Assembly: GCA_025128025.1 (NCBI GenBank)
Contig: JAHLYR010000068.1
Coordinates: 124,001-188,000 of the forward strand
Source of the DNA: Synechococcus sp. CS-1330
GTDB taxonomy: Bacteria > Cyanobacteriota > Cyanobacteriia > PCC-6307 > Cyanobiaceae
Direction: 5' to 3'
Length of the DNA: 64,000 nucleotides
This document shows positions 46,266 to 50,122 of this stretch, piece after piece. Position 1 is the stretch's first letter. Each line of letters starts with the position of its first letter. The position numbers and the translations under genes are program-made. A model generated the notes under the pieces. That model saw nothing but the letters and a program-made list of their open reading frames with translations. It was not told the DNA's origin and did no database searches.

Positions 46266-46523
46266 TTAAACCACGCCGCGGGAGGCCAGGCCAAGGATGG
46301 CGCCCATGCCGAGGATGTGGCCGAGGCTCAAGGTGCCGAGCATGGCGCCGTGGCTGAAGCCGCCAAATAGGCCGGCGCTTGGCAGCTTCAGACCAACGTT
46401 TTGATGTTGGATCGTGGCCTTGCCCAGGGCGATGGCAATCACGTTGCAGACAATCATCACCAGCGCCACCTTGGGTGACCAGCTGATGGTGGCGGGAGCA
46501 AGGGCAAGGAGGGGAGCGATCAT
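46266..46523 (-). CDS. psaK: Photosystem I reaction centre subunit PsaK
   Basis: An 85-residue two-helix protein. SWSPKVALVMIVCNVIAIALGK is helix 1, and GLFGGFSHGAMLGTLSLGHILGMGAILGL helix 2, matching PsaK, which sits at the PSI periphery and takes part in antenna coupling. ATG at 46523 gives the usual length; a GTG 12 codons upstream exists. It is the last gene of a minus-strand chain, 55 bases after the receptor-channel gene. Confidence 0.9.
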   Translation of the reverse strand: MIAPLLALAPATISWSPKVALVMIVCNVIAIALGKATIQHQNVGLKLPSAGLFGGFSHGAMLGTLSLGHILGMGAILGLASRGVV

Positions 46524-46578
46524 GGAGCAGGTGCCAACGCCCCATCTTCCGGGCAGCACCGCCCCTGGATCACCCGGC

Positions 46579-47661
46579 TTAAGACTTGTTCATTGCCTGC
46601 TGCCGCAGCCGGGTGACTACGCCATCGCGCTTGAGCCTGCCAAGTGCTTCATTGATCCGGGTTTCCAGGTCATCGCTGATGCCTGGTGAGAGGGCAAATG
46701 CCTGGGATTGGGGGTTGAGGTTGCGCAGCGCCAGCCCGTAGCGCTTGTGGGGCAGTTGCTGCAGCAAAAAGTCGAGCTGGATGTCGTCGGCGAGCACCGC
46801 ATCCACGGCATCAGCCACCAGCAGGCTGTCGGCGCGGATCACCTGATCGAGCTCTCGCAGCTGAATCGGCGGCTGCAGGCCAGATGTGTTGAGTCTTTGC
46901 AGTAGGTCGTCGCTGACGGTGCCACGCCGCACGGCAACCCGCTGGCCGGCGAGATCGTTGAGGCTGCGGATGTGGCGGCTCGCCAATTCCTGGTTGCCCC
47001 GCACGACGTTCAAGGTGACGTAGCTGACCAGCAGCGAGGCAGTGATGATCCGCACCAAGTAGGCCAGGAAGACCAAGGTGTGGCCCCGTGAACTAACTAC
47101 CACGGTGTTTGTGCCAGGTCCGGTGGCTAGCACCTGAAAGATCAGGGCGAAGGCGCGTCGCGGCCCGATCTCCCAGCTGCTGGGCTTACTGCCGTTGCGC
47201 TCCACCTGCCAAACAGCCACGCTCAACAGGCCTATCAGCAGCACGTAGGCCAGCAGCAGCCTGATCAGATCAGGAGCCAGCAGGGCGCGCAGAAGGGAGC
47301 TGCCGAGTTCCAGCTGGTTGCGCTTGACCATCACCCCCAAGCCCGATTCCTGAAAGGGCAGGCTGAAGCGGTTCTGGCGGATGCGTTCTGGTGAGATGGT
47401 GATGCAGCCGATCGCAACGTCCAGTTCGTTGCGCTTGGTGGCCTCCAGCAGCTCGGTTGTGTTGTCAGCTGGCACCAGTACATAGGGGATCTGCTCCTGG
47501 TCGGCGACCTGTTGCCACAGTTCCACGGCCATGCCACTCCAGCTGCCCCGCTGGCGGTAGGAGCAGGGCTGGGAGCCATCCGCTACGCCAACCCTTAATA
47601 CCGGTGCAGCCTGGCTGGGCCCAGCGGCCAGGCTGACGGCGATCGCCAGAGGCCAGAGCAT
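46579..47661 (-). CDS. Ionotropic-glutamate-receptor-like channel (GluR0 topology) with atypical pore
   Basis: A 360-residue protein: a signal sequence (cleaved after SQAA), binding lobe S1 (VLRVGVADGSQPCSYRQRGS through SLPFQESGLGVMVKRNQ), helix 1 (LIRLLLAYVLLIGLLSVAVW), a pore-like re-entrant segment (RRAFALIFQVLATGPGTN, then TVVVSSRG), helix 2 (TLVFLAYLVRIITASLLVSYV), then lobe S2. This is the S1-M-P-M-S2 order of bacterial GluR0. The K+ filter TVGYG is not present; ATGPGTN stands in its place. The ligand is probably an amino acid or another small solute. The start shares one base with the DUF3593 stop. Confidence 0.8.
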   Translation of the reverse strand: MLWPLAIAVSLAAGPSQAAPVLRVGVADGSQPCSYRQRGSWSGMAVELWQQVADQEQIPYVLVPADNTTELLEATKRNELDVAIGCITISPERIRQNRFSLPFQESGLGVMVKRNQLELGSSLLRALLAPDLIRLLLAYVLLIGLLSVAVWQVERNGSKPSSWEIGPRRAFALIFQVLATGPGTNTVVVSSRGHTLVFLAYLVRIITASLLVSYVTLNVVRGNQELASRHIRSLNDLAGQRVAVRRGTVSDDLLQRLNTSGLQPPIQLRELDQVIRADSLLVADAVDAVLADDIQLDFLLQQLPHKRYGLALRNLNPQSQAFALSPGISDDLETRINEALGRLKRDGVVTRLRQQAMNKS

Positions 47662-47990
47662 CAGGATCGGGGCGGTTGGGCCGTGATCACGGCGCCGATG
47701 CCGCTGAAGCCAAGCACCACCAGCAGGTTGGAGATCGTGAGCAGCGATTCAGCTCCCCCATGCAGGGGATCCACATTGGCCAGCAGCTCGCCGTAGCGCA
47801 GTTGGGCCACGATGGCGGCGGCAATCGTGACGGCCACAAACACCAGGGTGAATTGAAAACCCCGCAGGGCCAGCTTGGGGAACCCCTCAATCCGCCCTGC
47901 CCACCAAAGGAAGGCCAGATAGGGGAGTAGCGACAGCACGAACAAAGGAGTGGGGTCTATGCCGGCAAGCCAGCGGAGGGGACCGCTCAT
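47661..47990 (-). CDS. DUF3593 membrane protein
   Basis: A 109-residue protein with three helices. It starts MSGPLRWLAGIDPTPLFVLS, then LLPYLAFLWWAGRIEGFPKLALRGFQFTLVFVAVTI, matching DUF3593, a family of cyanobacteria and plastids with no known role. It overlaps the DUF2499 gene by 4 bases and the receptor-channel gene by 1 base, so it is coupled on both sides. Confidence 0.78.
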   Translation of the reverse strand: MSGPLRWLAGIDPTPLFVLSLLPYLAFLWWAGRIEGFPKLALRGFQFTLVFVAVTIAAAIVAQLRYGELLANVDPLHGGAESLLTISNLLVVLGFSGIGAVITAQPPRS

Positions 47991-48292
47991 GGGGCCGCCT
48001 GCCGCTGTTGACGCAGCAGGTTCCAGGCTGCCAATGCCAGGGCGGCGTTGCCAATGGTGGTGAGGCCCGCCTGAAACACCACCAGGCCCTGCAGGTTTGG
48101 GCTGTTGTCAAACAAATGCCAGGTGCAGGCAGCCATGGCGCTCACCAAGGCCGGCAACATTGCCAGGCTCAACCAACGCCAACCGCCCTCCCGGCGAGTC
48201 ACACCCAGGCGCTGCACGGCCACCATCGCAACCACCCACTCGAGCACCGAGGTGACGTGAATCCACCAGGTGGGTAGGGAGAGGGCATGCAT
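47987..48292 (-). CDS. DUF2499 (Ycf49-like) membrane protein
   Basis: A 101-residue protein with three helices: LPTWWIHVTSVLEWVVAMVAV, WLSLAMLPALVSAMAACTWHLFDN and LVVFQAGLTTIGNAALALAAWNLL. The HLFDN and ...GLTTIGN patterns fit DUF2499, which I recall as Ycf49-like. It is usually paired with DUF3593, as here. The LysR gene ends 4 bases upstream. Confidence 0.78.
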   Translation of the reverse strand: MHALSLPTWWIHVTSVLEWVVAMVAVQRLGVTRREGGWRWLSLAMLPALVSAMAACTWHLFDNSPNLQGLVVFQAGLTTIGNAALALAAWNLLRQQRQAAP

Positions 48293-48296
48293 GGGG

Positions 48297-49163
48297 TCAG
48301 AGCAGGGGCGTGAGCTTCTCTTCGGAGCGTGACACGTCCTGGATGCGGTGCCGCAGGGTGTCGACCAGTTCGGCAATGGCCGGTGCGTTTCGGTTGTCGT
48401 GCAGCACCACCAGGCTCTCGACGTAATGGGAGGGCACGGCTACATCGAGCTCAACCACCGGCAGGGTGGTTCGCAGGGTCTTGAGTATCAGGCTATTGGC
48501 GAAGTACACGGCCTCTTTCTGGCTTTGTCCAGCAACGGCGTAGGCCTGCTCTGGCTGGAAGTGATGCTGGAAGAAGTTTTGGATGAACAGCTTCTGGGCG
48601 CGGGGATTGAACGGGAAGGTCGCGATTTGGCAGCAAGAGCCGATGTCCAGGCGAGTGGGCTTGGAAATATCACCTACGCGGGAGTCCGCCGTGGTTACCA
48701 GATGGATTGGCGAGTGGTAGAGGTCGAAACAGGTGAAGCGATGGTCGTCGCTGGACGGTCGTTCGGGCAGGGTTGCTAGGCAGGCGTCGACCACCCGCGC
48801 CTTCAGCAGGTCCAGGCAGTGGTGGGGCGACCCCGGCCCGTCGCTGGGGTTGATGATCCAGCCCTGGGGCAGCGGCCTCAGCAGGTGGTCGTGACTCCAG
48901 GCCGGAGCCTGCAGTCGCAGGGGGCGGTTGCGATGGATTCGATTTACTTGGTGTACCTCTCTCTCCATTTGCACCAGGAGGGAATTTCCACTCAGGTGCC
49001 ACTGGGCGCCTCTGCGTTGCAGCTTGAGGCCGAAGCTGGACTCGGCCTGACGGATCCGCCGGGACACCGTGCTCTGATTGCAGCGGGCCCGTTCTCCAGC
49101 CAGGGCACCACTCCCTAGCCAGATCAACAGATCCAGAGCTTCCAGTGTCTCAACGGTGACCAT
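48297..49163 (-). CDS. LysR-type transcriptional regulator
   Basis: A 288-residue regulator. The N-terminal winged helix is LEALDLLIWLGSGALAGERARCNQSTVSRRIRQAESSFGLKLQRRG. The rest is a periplasmic-binding-like effector domain that is more divergent than usual (CLDLLKARVVDACLATLPERP, IHLVTTADSRVGDIS). The start at 49163 is the first codon of the HTH; the frame open further upstream lies in the sulfotransferase gene. It sits in the middle of an apparent operon instead of diverging from its target, which is uncommon for this family. Confidence 0.8.
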   Translation of the reverse strand: MVTVETLEALDLLIWLGSGALAGERARCNQSTVSRRIRQAESSFGLKLQRRGAQWHLSGNSLLVQMEREVHQVNRIHRNRPLRLQAPAWSHDHLLRPLPQGWIINPSDGPGSPHHCLDLLKARVVDACLATLPERPSSDDHRFTCFDLYHSPIHLVTTADSRVGDISKPTRLDIGSCCQIATFPFNPRAQKLFIQNFFQHHFQPEQAYAVAGQSQKEAVYFANSLILKTLRTTLPVVELDVAVPSHYVESLVVLHDNRNAPAIAELVDTLRHRIQDVSRSEEKLTPLL

Positions 49164-49168
49164 CGCGC

Positions 49169-50122
49169 CTAGCCATCCACCGTGGGCAGTTGTTGATCGC
49201 AGCTTCGATGGAGCCAGCGGTGGCAGTCGGGGCTGAGGGCGTTGCGGCTCACCCGCTCGTACGCCTCCAGCTGCTCCGGCCGCAGCACCCCCCGCCAACG
49301 CCCGTTGGTACCCCGGTAGAGGAAGGATTCCGCGCCCCCCTTCCAGAGACGCCCCCCGCAGGGCACATAGGTGGCGCTGCGCCGCCGCATGGCTTGGAAG
49401 TCGACGGCGGCACACACCATTTCTAAGCGCTCCGGGTCGAGGTCGATGCCCAGGAAGCTGGCGATCCGCTGCACCTGAGCTATGAGATCGGCCTTGAGGT
49501 CGTTGTAGTGGAGCAAGAGAATGTTGGATTGCTGGTGGTGATCCCACCAAGACTGCACGTTGTGAAAGAACGACCAGTAGGGCCACCCATCTTGCTCCCA
49601 GTCCAGCCAGCCGCGCTGCAGCCAGTCATCAAAGAAGGTGTGCACATCGGCGGGGGGGTGCGGAAAGGTATCTCCCTGTTCATTGGGAATCTGGTTGACT
49701 AGATGGTGGGCTTCGTCACTCCAGTTAAAGTAATGATTCCAGAGCGACATCGCCACATCCCGTCCATCGCGGGCGATATATAAAAACGAGCGTTTCTGGT
49801 CCCAGGGCAAGGCATCCAGGGGCAGATGGCTCTTGATGAAGCGTCGGTGGCGTTGCTGCTCCAGGGTTTGCTGCAGGGATTCAAGATCGTGATAATTCGC
49901 CTCCAGCCAGGGAGAGAGCTCTGCCAGCGAGGCGGGCAATTCCCCCTCAAATAGCAAATGGGCCACGATCGACTGCAGCCAAGTGGTGCCGCTCTTGTAC
50001 GGACTGGCGATGATGATGTCGTCGTCGCGCGGGTTCAGCCCATTCCAGCGCTGGCTATCGAAGTGGTGATTGCGGATGCGGCGCGTGCACTGCGGGTCAG
50101 GGCATCGCGGGTCGGTGCTCAC
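49169..50122 (-). CDS. PAPS-dependent sulfotransferase
   Basis: A 317-residue sulfotransferase of the cytosolic (aryl/hydroxysteroid) type. The PAPS 5'-phosphosulfate loop is SPYKSGTTWLQSI (residues 40-52), the 3'-phosphate motif is YIARDGRDVAMSLWNHY, and the C-terminal RGTNGRWRGVL corresponds to the RKGxxGDWK motif. FIKSHLPLDALPW holds the usual catalytic-region histidine. The acceptor is unknown; polysaccharide, lipid or a small alcohol are options. It heads the minus-strand chain and diverges from csaB across 53 bases. Confidence 0.88.
   Translation of the reverse strand: MSTDPRCPDPQCTRRIRNHHFDSQRWNGLNPRDDDIIIASPYKSGTTWLQSIVAHLLFEGELPASLAELSPWLEANYHDLESLQQTLEQQRHRRFIKSHLPLDALPWDQKRSFLYIARDGRDVAMSLWNHYFNWSDEAHHLVNQIPNEQGDTFPHPPADVHTFFDDWLQRGWLDWEQDGWPYWSFFHNVQSWWDHHQQSNILLLHYNDLKADLIAQVQRIASFLGIDLDPERLEMVCAAVDFQAMRRRSATYVPCGGRLWKGGAESFLYRGTNGRWRGVLRPEQLEAYERVSRNALSPDCHRWLHRSCDQQLPTVDG

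Follow-up and report, generated by a model that had tools for sequence, protein, structure and literature searches.

We have identified in Synechococcus sp. CS-1330 a glutamate-receptor-like channel subunit in which the TVGYGD potassium filter of GluR0-type proteins is replaced by TGPG. Going beyond an earlier sequence-only reading of the gene, we find that this motif marks a family-wide clade, which has relatives with acidic and MG[TS]G filters and an invariant arginine in its second transmembrane helix. We favor, with a probability of roughly 0.6, the interpretation that the protein is an amino-acid-gated channel of the prokaryotic ionotropic glutamate receptor (iGluR) kind, no longer selective for K+ and probably non-selective for cations. 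If it conducts, many picocyanobacteria own glutamate-receptor-type channels that standard annotation would file as transport binding proteins. The natural filters TVGYGD, TGPG, TGEGD, TGSGD, MG[TS]G and ATQADE share one 360-aa architecture, so that the departure of iGluR pores from the K+-channel filter becomes directly testable in small bacterial proteins.

Architecture and homology of the probable channel protein

The gene lies in a 64,000-nucleotide stretch of DNA (the window), and its features and neighbors are collected in Table 1. SBP_bac_3 was matched over residues 22-355 in a Pfam search, interrupted by a membrane insertion of about 110 residues (two transmembrane helices and a pore helix) between the lobes. 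Hydropathy analysis gave exactly two transmembrane peaks, at residues 132-150 and 195-213. In an AlphaFold2 model (single chain, 31-row alignment, mean pLDDT 85.7), M1, a short helix, a loop (residues 181-190) and M2 all lie between both lobes. Behind a probable signal peptide, Pfam, hydropathy, the predicted structure and lobe homology support the succession S1, M1, re-entrant pore helix, M2 and S2, and the GluR0-like arrangement that had been proposed from the sequence is borne out. As in prokaryotic iGluRs, split amino-acid-binding lobes of the SBP type flank a membrane domain in which a re-entrant pore helix stands between two transmembrane helices. No other protein of iGluR architecture was found in the 2.5 Mb host genome, where SBP_bac_3 is matched by three further proteins, a longer one that is GlnH-like and two of different architecture.

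Table 1. Features of the channel gene and its neighbors (window positions)
Feature	Position	Strand	Basis or remark
CDS, glutamate-receptor-like channel subunit	46579..47661	-	ATG start, 360 aa plus stop, no internal stops
Probable signal peptide, residues 1-19 (...AAGPSQA|AP)	47605..47661	-	Hydrophobic N-terminus, AXA-like end, read by eye
S1 half of ligand-binding lobes, residues 20-118	47308..47604	-	Pfam SBP_bac_3; GluR0 and GlnBP matches
C33, invariant in TGPG, TGxGD and MGxG clades	47563..47565	-	Alignment; may form a disulfide with C86
C86, invariant partner of C33	47404..47406	-	Alignment; putative disulfide
M1 transmembrane helix, residues 130-157, with WxxE motif common to K+-type iGluRs	47191..47274	-	AlphaFold2, hydropathy, TMD profile alignment
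Pore (re-entrant) helix, residues 167-180	47122..47163	-	AlphaFold2 model
Filter loop LATGPGTNT, residues 178-186, replaces TVGYGD	47104..47130	-	Sequence, conservation, dN/dS
M2 transmembrane helix, residues 191-226	46984..47091	-	AlphaFold2, hydropathy
R204, invariant arginine mid-M2, clade marker	47050..47052	-	Orthologue alignment
S2 half of ligand-binding lobes, residues 227-355	46597..46983	-	Pfam; GluR0 and GlnBP matches
DUF3593 (PF12159), upstream neighbor	47661..47990	-	Stop overlaps channel ATG by one base (TGATG)
DUF2499 (PF10693), upstream neighbor	47987..48376	-	Listed TTG start probably too far upstream
psaK (photosystem I subunit), downstream neighbor	46266..46559	-	Pfam and homology

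Replacement of TVGYG by ATGPGTN, also noticed previously, was confirmed by re-reading the DNA. The reverse complement of the filter-loop positions is CTA GCC ACC GGA CCT GGC ACA AAC ACC, and residues 179-191 are ATGPGTNTVVVSS, at the place of TVGYGD in GluR0-type proteins.

Judged by sequence, the lobes are clearly homologous to those of GluR0 and GlnH. Among solved structures, a profile built from TGPG proteins only matched GlnBP and the ligand-binding domains (LBDs) of GluR0 and of a Nostoc punctiforme GluR0 homologue, and in GluN2C and GLR3.4 the match ran through the pore. The amino-acid-contact residues R93 and R245 occur in 45/45 orthologues and D292 is Asp in 42 and Glu in 3, which accords with the conserved S1 Arg and S2 Asp of the amino-acid site in prokaryotic iGluRs (PMC2950845).

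Similarity in the membrane domain taken alone is weaker. A full-length profile matched K+-type iGluRs with P=99.95 and E=5e-38, the K+-type profile here containing one proteobacterial row as well. The transmembrane domain (TMD) alone gave a weak hhalign match to K+-type TMDs (78-84% probability, printed best stretch M1; E about 1e-5, as opposed to 0.03-0.75 in reversed or shuffled controls). Foldseek placed AMPA-receptor LBD-TMD chains among the top matches (~380 columns, E about 1e-17), at TM-scores of ~0.5 that were no higher than those for binding proteins alone. Lig_chan and Ion_trans_2 matched both K+-type paralogues tested but no TGPG, TGxGD or MGxG protein among those tested; of the five Ion_trans_2 matches in the host genome, none is at the channel gene. 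Homology of the pore domain is likely from its position, length, M1 and topology, the P-M2 part being not proved by sequence. TGPG can be set against TVGYG in either of two registers, one residue apart: an ungapped M2 alignment pairs T180 with T75, P182 with G77 and N185 with D80 (KcsA numbers), while a shift of one residue pairs GPG with GYG and is favored by the TGxGD variants. A control model of a K+-type protein does not settle the matter, its pore being predicted with low confidence.

In comparison with GluR0 (Slr1257 of Synechocystis) and other Group 1 proteins (PMC2950845), the present protein is alike in S1-M1-P-M2-S2 order, length (~360 aa), SBP_bac_3 lobes, the Arg and Asp of the amino-acid site, and WxxE in M1. 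It differs in its TGPGxN filter, in invariant R204 and C33/C86, in weak TMD similarity, and in drawing no Lig_chan or Ion_trans_2 match. With TGPG in place of a TVGYG-type filter and no Ion_trans_2 match, it falls outside the K+-selective GluR0 subgroup of Group 1.

Hallmarks of eukaryotic iGluRs are a SYTANLAAF-type M3 motif and an M4 helix. The protein described here has neither, with two transmembrane helices and an M2 that reads TASLLVSYVTLNVV.

Conservation of the TGPG filter and its relatives

[TS]GPG is present in each of the 45 distinct full-length orthologues that were aligned from the Cyanobiaceae, so the motif is more than chance. Their pore consensus is FQ[VI]LATGPG[TS]NT; G181, P182, G183 and N185 are each present in 45/45, and position 180 is Thr in 44 and Ser in one. 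Of 328 windows of eight residues, the two with the highest conservation both fall in the filter loop. For residues 175-186, dN/dS was 0.022, 0.052 and 0.000 in three groups, compared with 0.248, 0.184 and 0.326 over residues 20-355. Nei-Gojobori values on so short a region are rough. The filter is under purifying selection and the motif is invariant among TGPG orthologues. It is present in the orthologue of Cyanobium usitatum, the closest named record (94% identical), and in two other named Cyanobium genomes (77%); the host genome itself belongs to a relative of Cyanobium. The possibility, raised beforehand, that homologues would show TVGYG and the present gene an isolated mutation did not hold in the pore alignment. 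Nothing speaks for an ordinary GluR0 altered by an isolated mutation or a sequencing artefact, and the 45 distinct orthologues with the motif lead us to reject this reading as having a negligible chance.

Some match to the channel protein was seen in 161 of 400 sampled Cyanobiaceae genomes, many of these being K+-type or other paralogues, and an orthologue-grade match in ~69 of the 400, as counted from the match listing. Among 386 genomes sampled across the phylum, none outside the Cyanobiaceae had an orthologue-grade TGPG match. Phages and viral contigs were also searched and yielded no homologue, and a phage origin was rejected on this basis. One genome with 6% contamination (G304) held two orthologue-grade copies, G304:C222 and G304:C229.

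Picocyanobacteria also encode K+-type TVGYGD paralogues, an MG[TS]G clade and rarer pores; in other families of cyanobacteria the pores read TVGYGD or Nostoc-like ATQADEMPK, the label "Nostoc-like" being taken from the Group 2 list of Ger et al. Nested inside the TGPG clade is a clade with acidic TGEGD or TGSGD filters (L054, L064, L096, L098, L099). TGGGD occurs in a fragment (L055/L103) that was not placed in the tree, and all acidic-filter orthologues including this fragment retain R204 and the cysteine pair. The sister clade has MG[TS]G filters, with one VGSG (L041, L044, L045, L047, L066, L106), and its proteins were matched by SBP_bac_3 alone where tested. In a maximum-likelihood tree from which the filter columns had been excluded, seven changes, the minimum possible, account for the eight filter groups. 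This tree is used for grouping only, because it came from a quick search and has several long branches.

R204 is found in 45/45 TGPG, 5/5 TGxGD, 6/6 MGxG and 4/5 "other" rows, and in 0/31 K+-type, ATQADE, VGGAD and proteobacterial rows. In the same alignment, C33 and C86 have nearly the same distribution. Alignment with GlnH places them at two strand ends next to the binding site, for which reason a C33-C86 disulfide in S1 is plausible.

According to Ger et al. (2010; PMC2950845), prokaryotic iGluRs with no recognizable filter form Group 2, defined by iGluR topology and a P region unlike known filters. Members such as the Nostoc-like ATQADE proteins resemble ours in combining this topology with a filter not of K+ type, and the TGPG protein fits the group in descriptive terms. 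It lacks the two-residue deletion of the ATQADE rows and belongs to another clade, and R204 and the cysteine pair are found here only. Group 2-style iGluRs are thus known already as a class. No paper describing a TGPG filter or a picocyanobacterial TGPG clade turned up in the open literature, where few subscription journals were covered, and relative to that literature the filter appears to be new.

Four iGluR-like proteins from proteobacterial plasmids (L109-L112) share the topology and have T/S/A-G after the pore helix. They are 24-27% identical, have TGKTS, SGKSPS, TGRPAS and AGRATA filters, and lack R204 and the cysteine pair. The first, from a conjugative Salmonella plasmid (NZ_CP017721.1, 257318-258373), has a TTGKTS pore and is annotated merely as a substrate-binding protein; the other three, which are similar to it, are on alphaproteobacterial plasmids.

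Proposed channel function and its alternatives

The intact and conserved TGPG protein is probably a working channel. By analogy with GluR0, both lobes would be periplasmic and the pore loop would enter the membrane from the cytoplasm. Binding of an amino acid by R93, R245 and D292 would close the clamshell, and closure would pull M2 and open a tetrameric pore, for whose TGPGxN filter a weakly selective cation conductance, as in NaK (TVGDGN), would be the simplest outcome. Tetramer, gating, ligand identity, conduction and permeant ions are all points that we infer from such analogies; for GluR0, a periplasmic position of the lobes and transport of K+ have been demonstrated (PMC13099474).

An altered ion selectivity, suspected from the beginning, is a reasonable inference from the exchange of the K+ filter. 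The aromatic residue of TVGYGD and the acidic residue that follows are gone, so that a loss of K+ selectivity is most likely. NaK keeps two of the four sites, is non-selective, and becomes K+-selective once it carries TVGYGD (PMC8689586, PMC9822992). The likeness to NaK is one of function, a changed filter residue removing K+ selectivity; NaK is not of the same family, as it has no ligand-binding lobes, has the opposite membrane orientation and retains TVG. Against a cation channel, most TGPG members lack an acidic residue after the filter. This "+4" residue is retained in GluR0 and most iGluRs (PMC12226733) and is mostly missing in the TGPG clade. Residues 169-222 of the TGPG rows mostly hold 0-1 acidic and 4-5 basic residues, and so net positive a pore segment is unusual and counts against a cation pore.

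A broader view, which we put forward tentatively as possible but rather doubtful, is that these proteins constitute a separate picocyanobacterial amino-acid-gated class. It would have its own signature (TGPG, with TGxGD and MG[TS]G relatives, the M2 arginine and a probable S1 disulfide), a selectivity unlike that of characterized iGluRs (anion or Na+, for example), and a filter that switched between neutral and acidic forms during evolution.

Loss of acidic pore residues and gain of the invariant M2 arginine would make the path electropositive, so that the pore might pass anions, exclude divalents or be otherwise unusual in selectivity. The charge count above and R204 in 45/45 orthologues agree with this idea, which we nevertheless hold to be unlikely. 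A helical wheel, with gate-face positions that we take to be those of GluA2, sets R204 80-160 degrees off the expected gate face, which argues against a pore-lining anion site at this residue, and the nested TGEGD and TGSGD filters keep R204, which suggests cations.

It is also improbable that K+ selectivity is kept by another filter chemistry, with GPG in place of GYG. Some K+-type relatives do have GxG followed by Asp, the nested TGxGD resembles GYGD, and in the tree the TGPG clade descends among K+-type proteins. However, neither V nor Y of TVGYGD is kept and the Asp is missing in most members, and in NaK the Y and D changes alone abolish selectivity (PMC8689586, PMC9822992).

The membrane domain might instead not conduct, serving as a structural relic or a signaling anchor with the lobes as sensor. 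The TMD has no match to channel models and the gene is missing or decayed in some relatives, both of which fit. We nonetheless see little chance of this, with a protein of 360 aa that has no cytoplasmic signaling domain. A relic, which the sequence-only reading had entertained, is disfavored because conservation is highest and dN/dS lowest in the filter (0.00-0.05 versus 0.18-0.33 in the protein as a whole), although conservation is also compatible with a loop that is non-conducting and structurally constrained.

Automatic annotation would suggest a binding protein for amino acids, anchored in the membrane and supplying an ABC transporter, SBP_bac_3 and GlnH-like models being the only matches. 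GlnH-type ABC binding proteins are indeed alike in lobe sequence and ligand-contact residues. Such proteins have an uninterrupted fold and permease and ATPase partners; here the membrane and pore helices are inserted between the lobes and not at an end, the filter motif is conserved, and the neighbors examined (DUF2499, DUF3593 and psaK) include no ABC permease or ATPase gene, which makes this reading very improbable.

Gene neighborhood

The order DUF2499-DUF3593-iGluR-psaK is shared by ~17 distinct iGluR loci. The DUF2499-DUF3593-psaK cluster itself was present in 30/30 Cyanobiaceae DUF3593 loci checked (L113-L142), and the channel gene lay between DUF3593 and psaK in 6 of the 30. The channel gene is an optional insertion in a fixed cluster. 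An operon-type functional link to the three neighbors was therefore rejected, and synteny says little about function.

Some relatives lack the channel gene or carry it in decayed form. In a metagenome-assembled genome (casp40-mb.195; L008:3001-3528), a decayed copy between DUF3593 and psaK has frameshifts and has lost its center including the pore; another decayed copy, G171:C20, looks like the same event. Further along the window, an ORF at 48297-49586 on the minus strand has the start region of a LysR-type HTH_1 domain at residues 147-192, and its GTG start is probably far too early.
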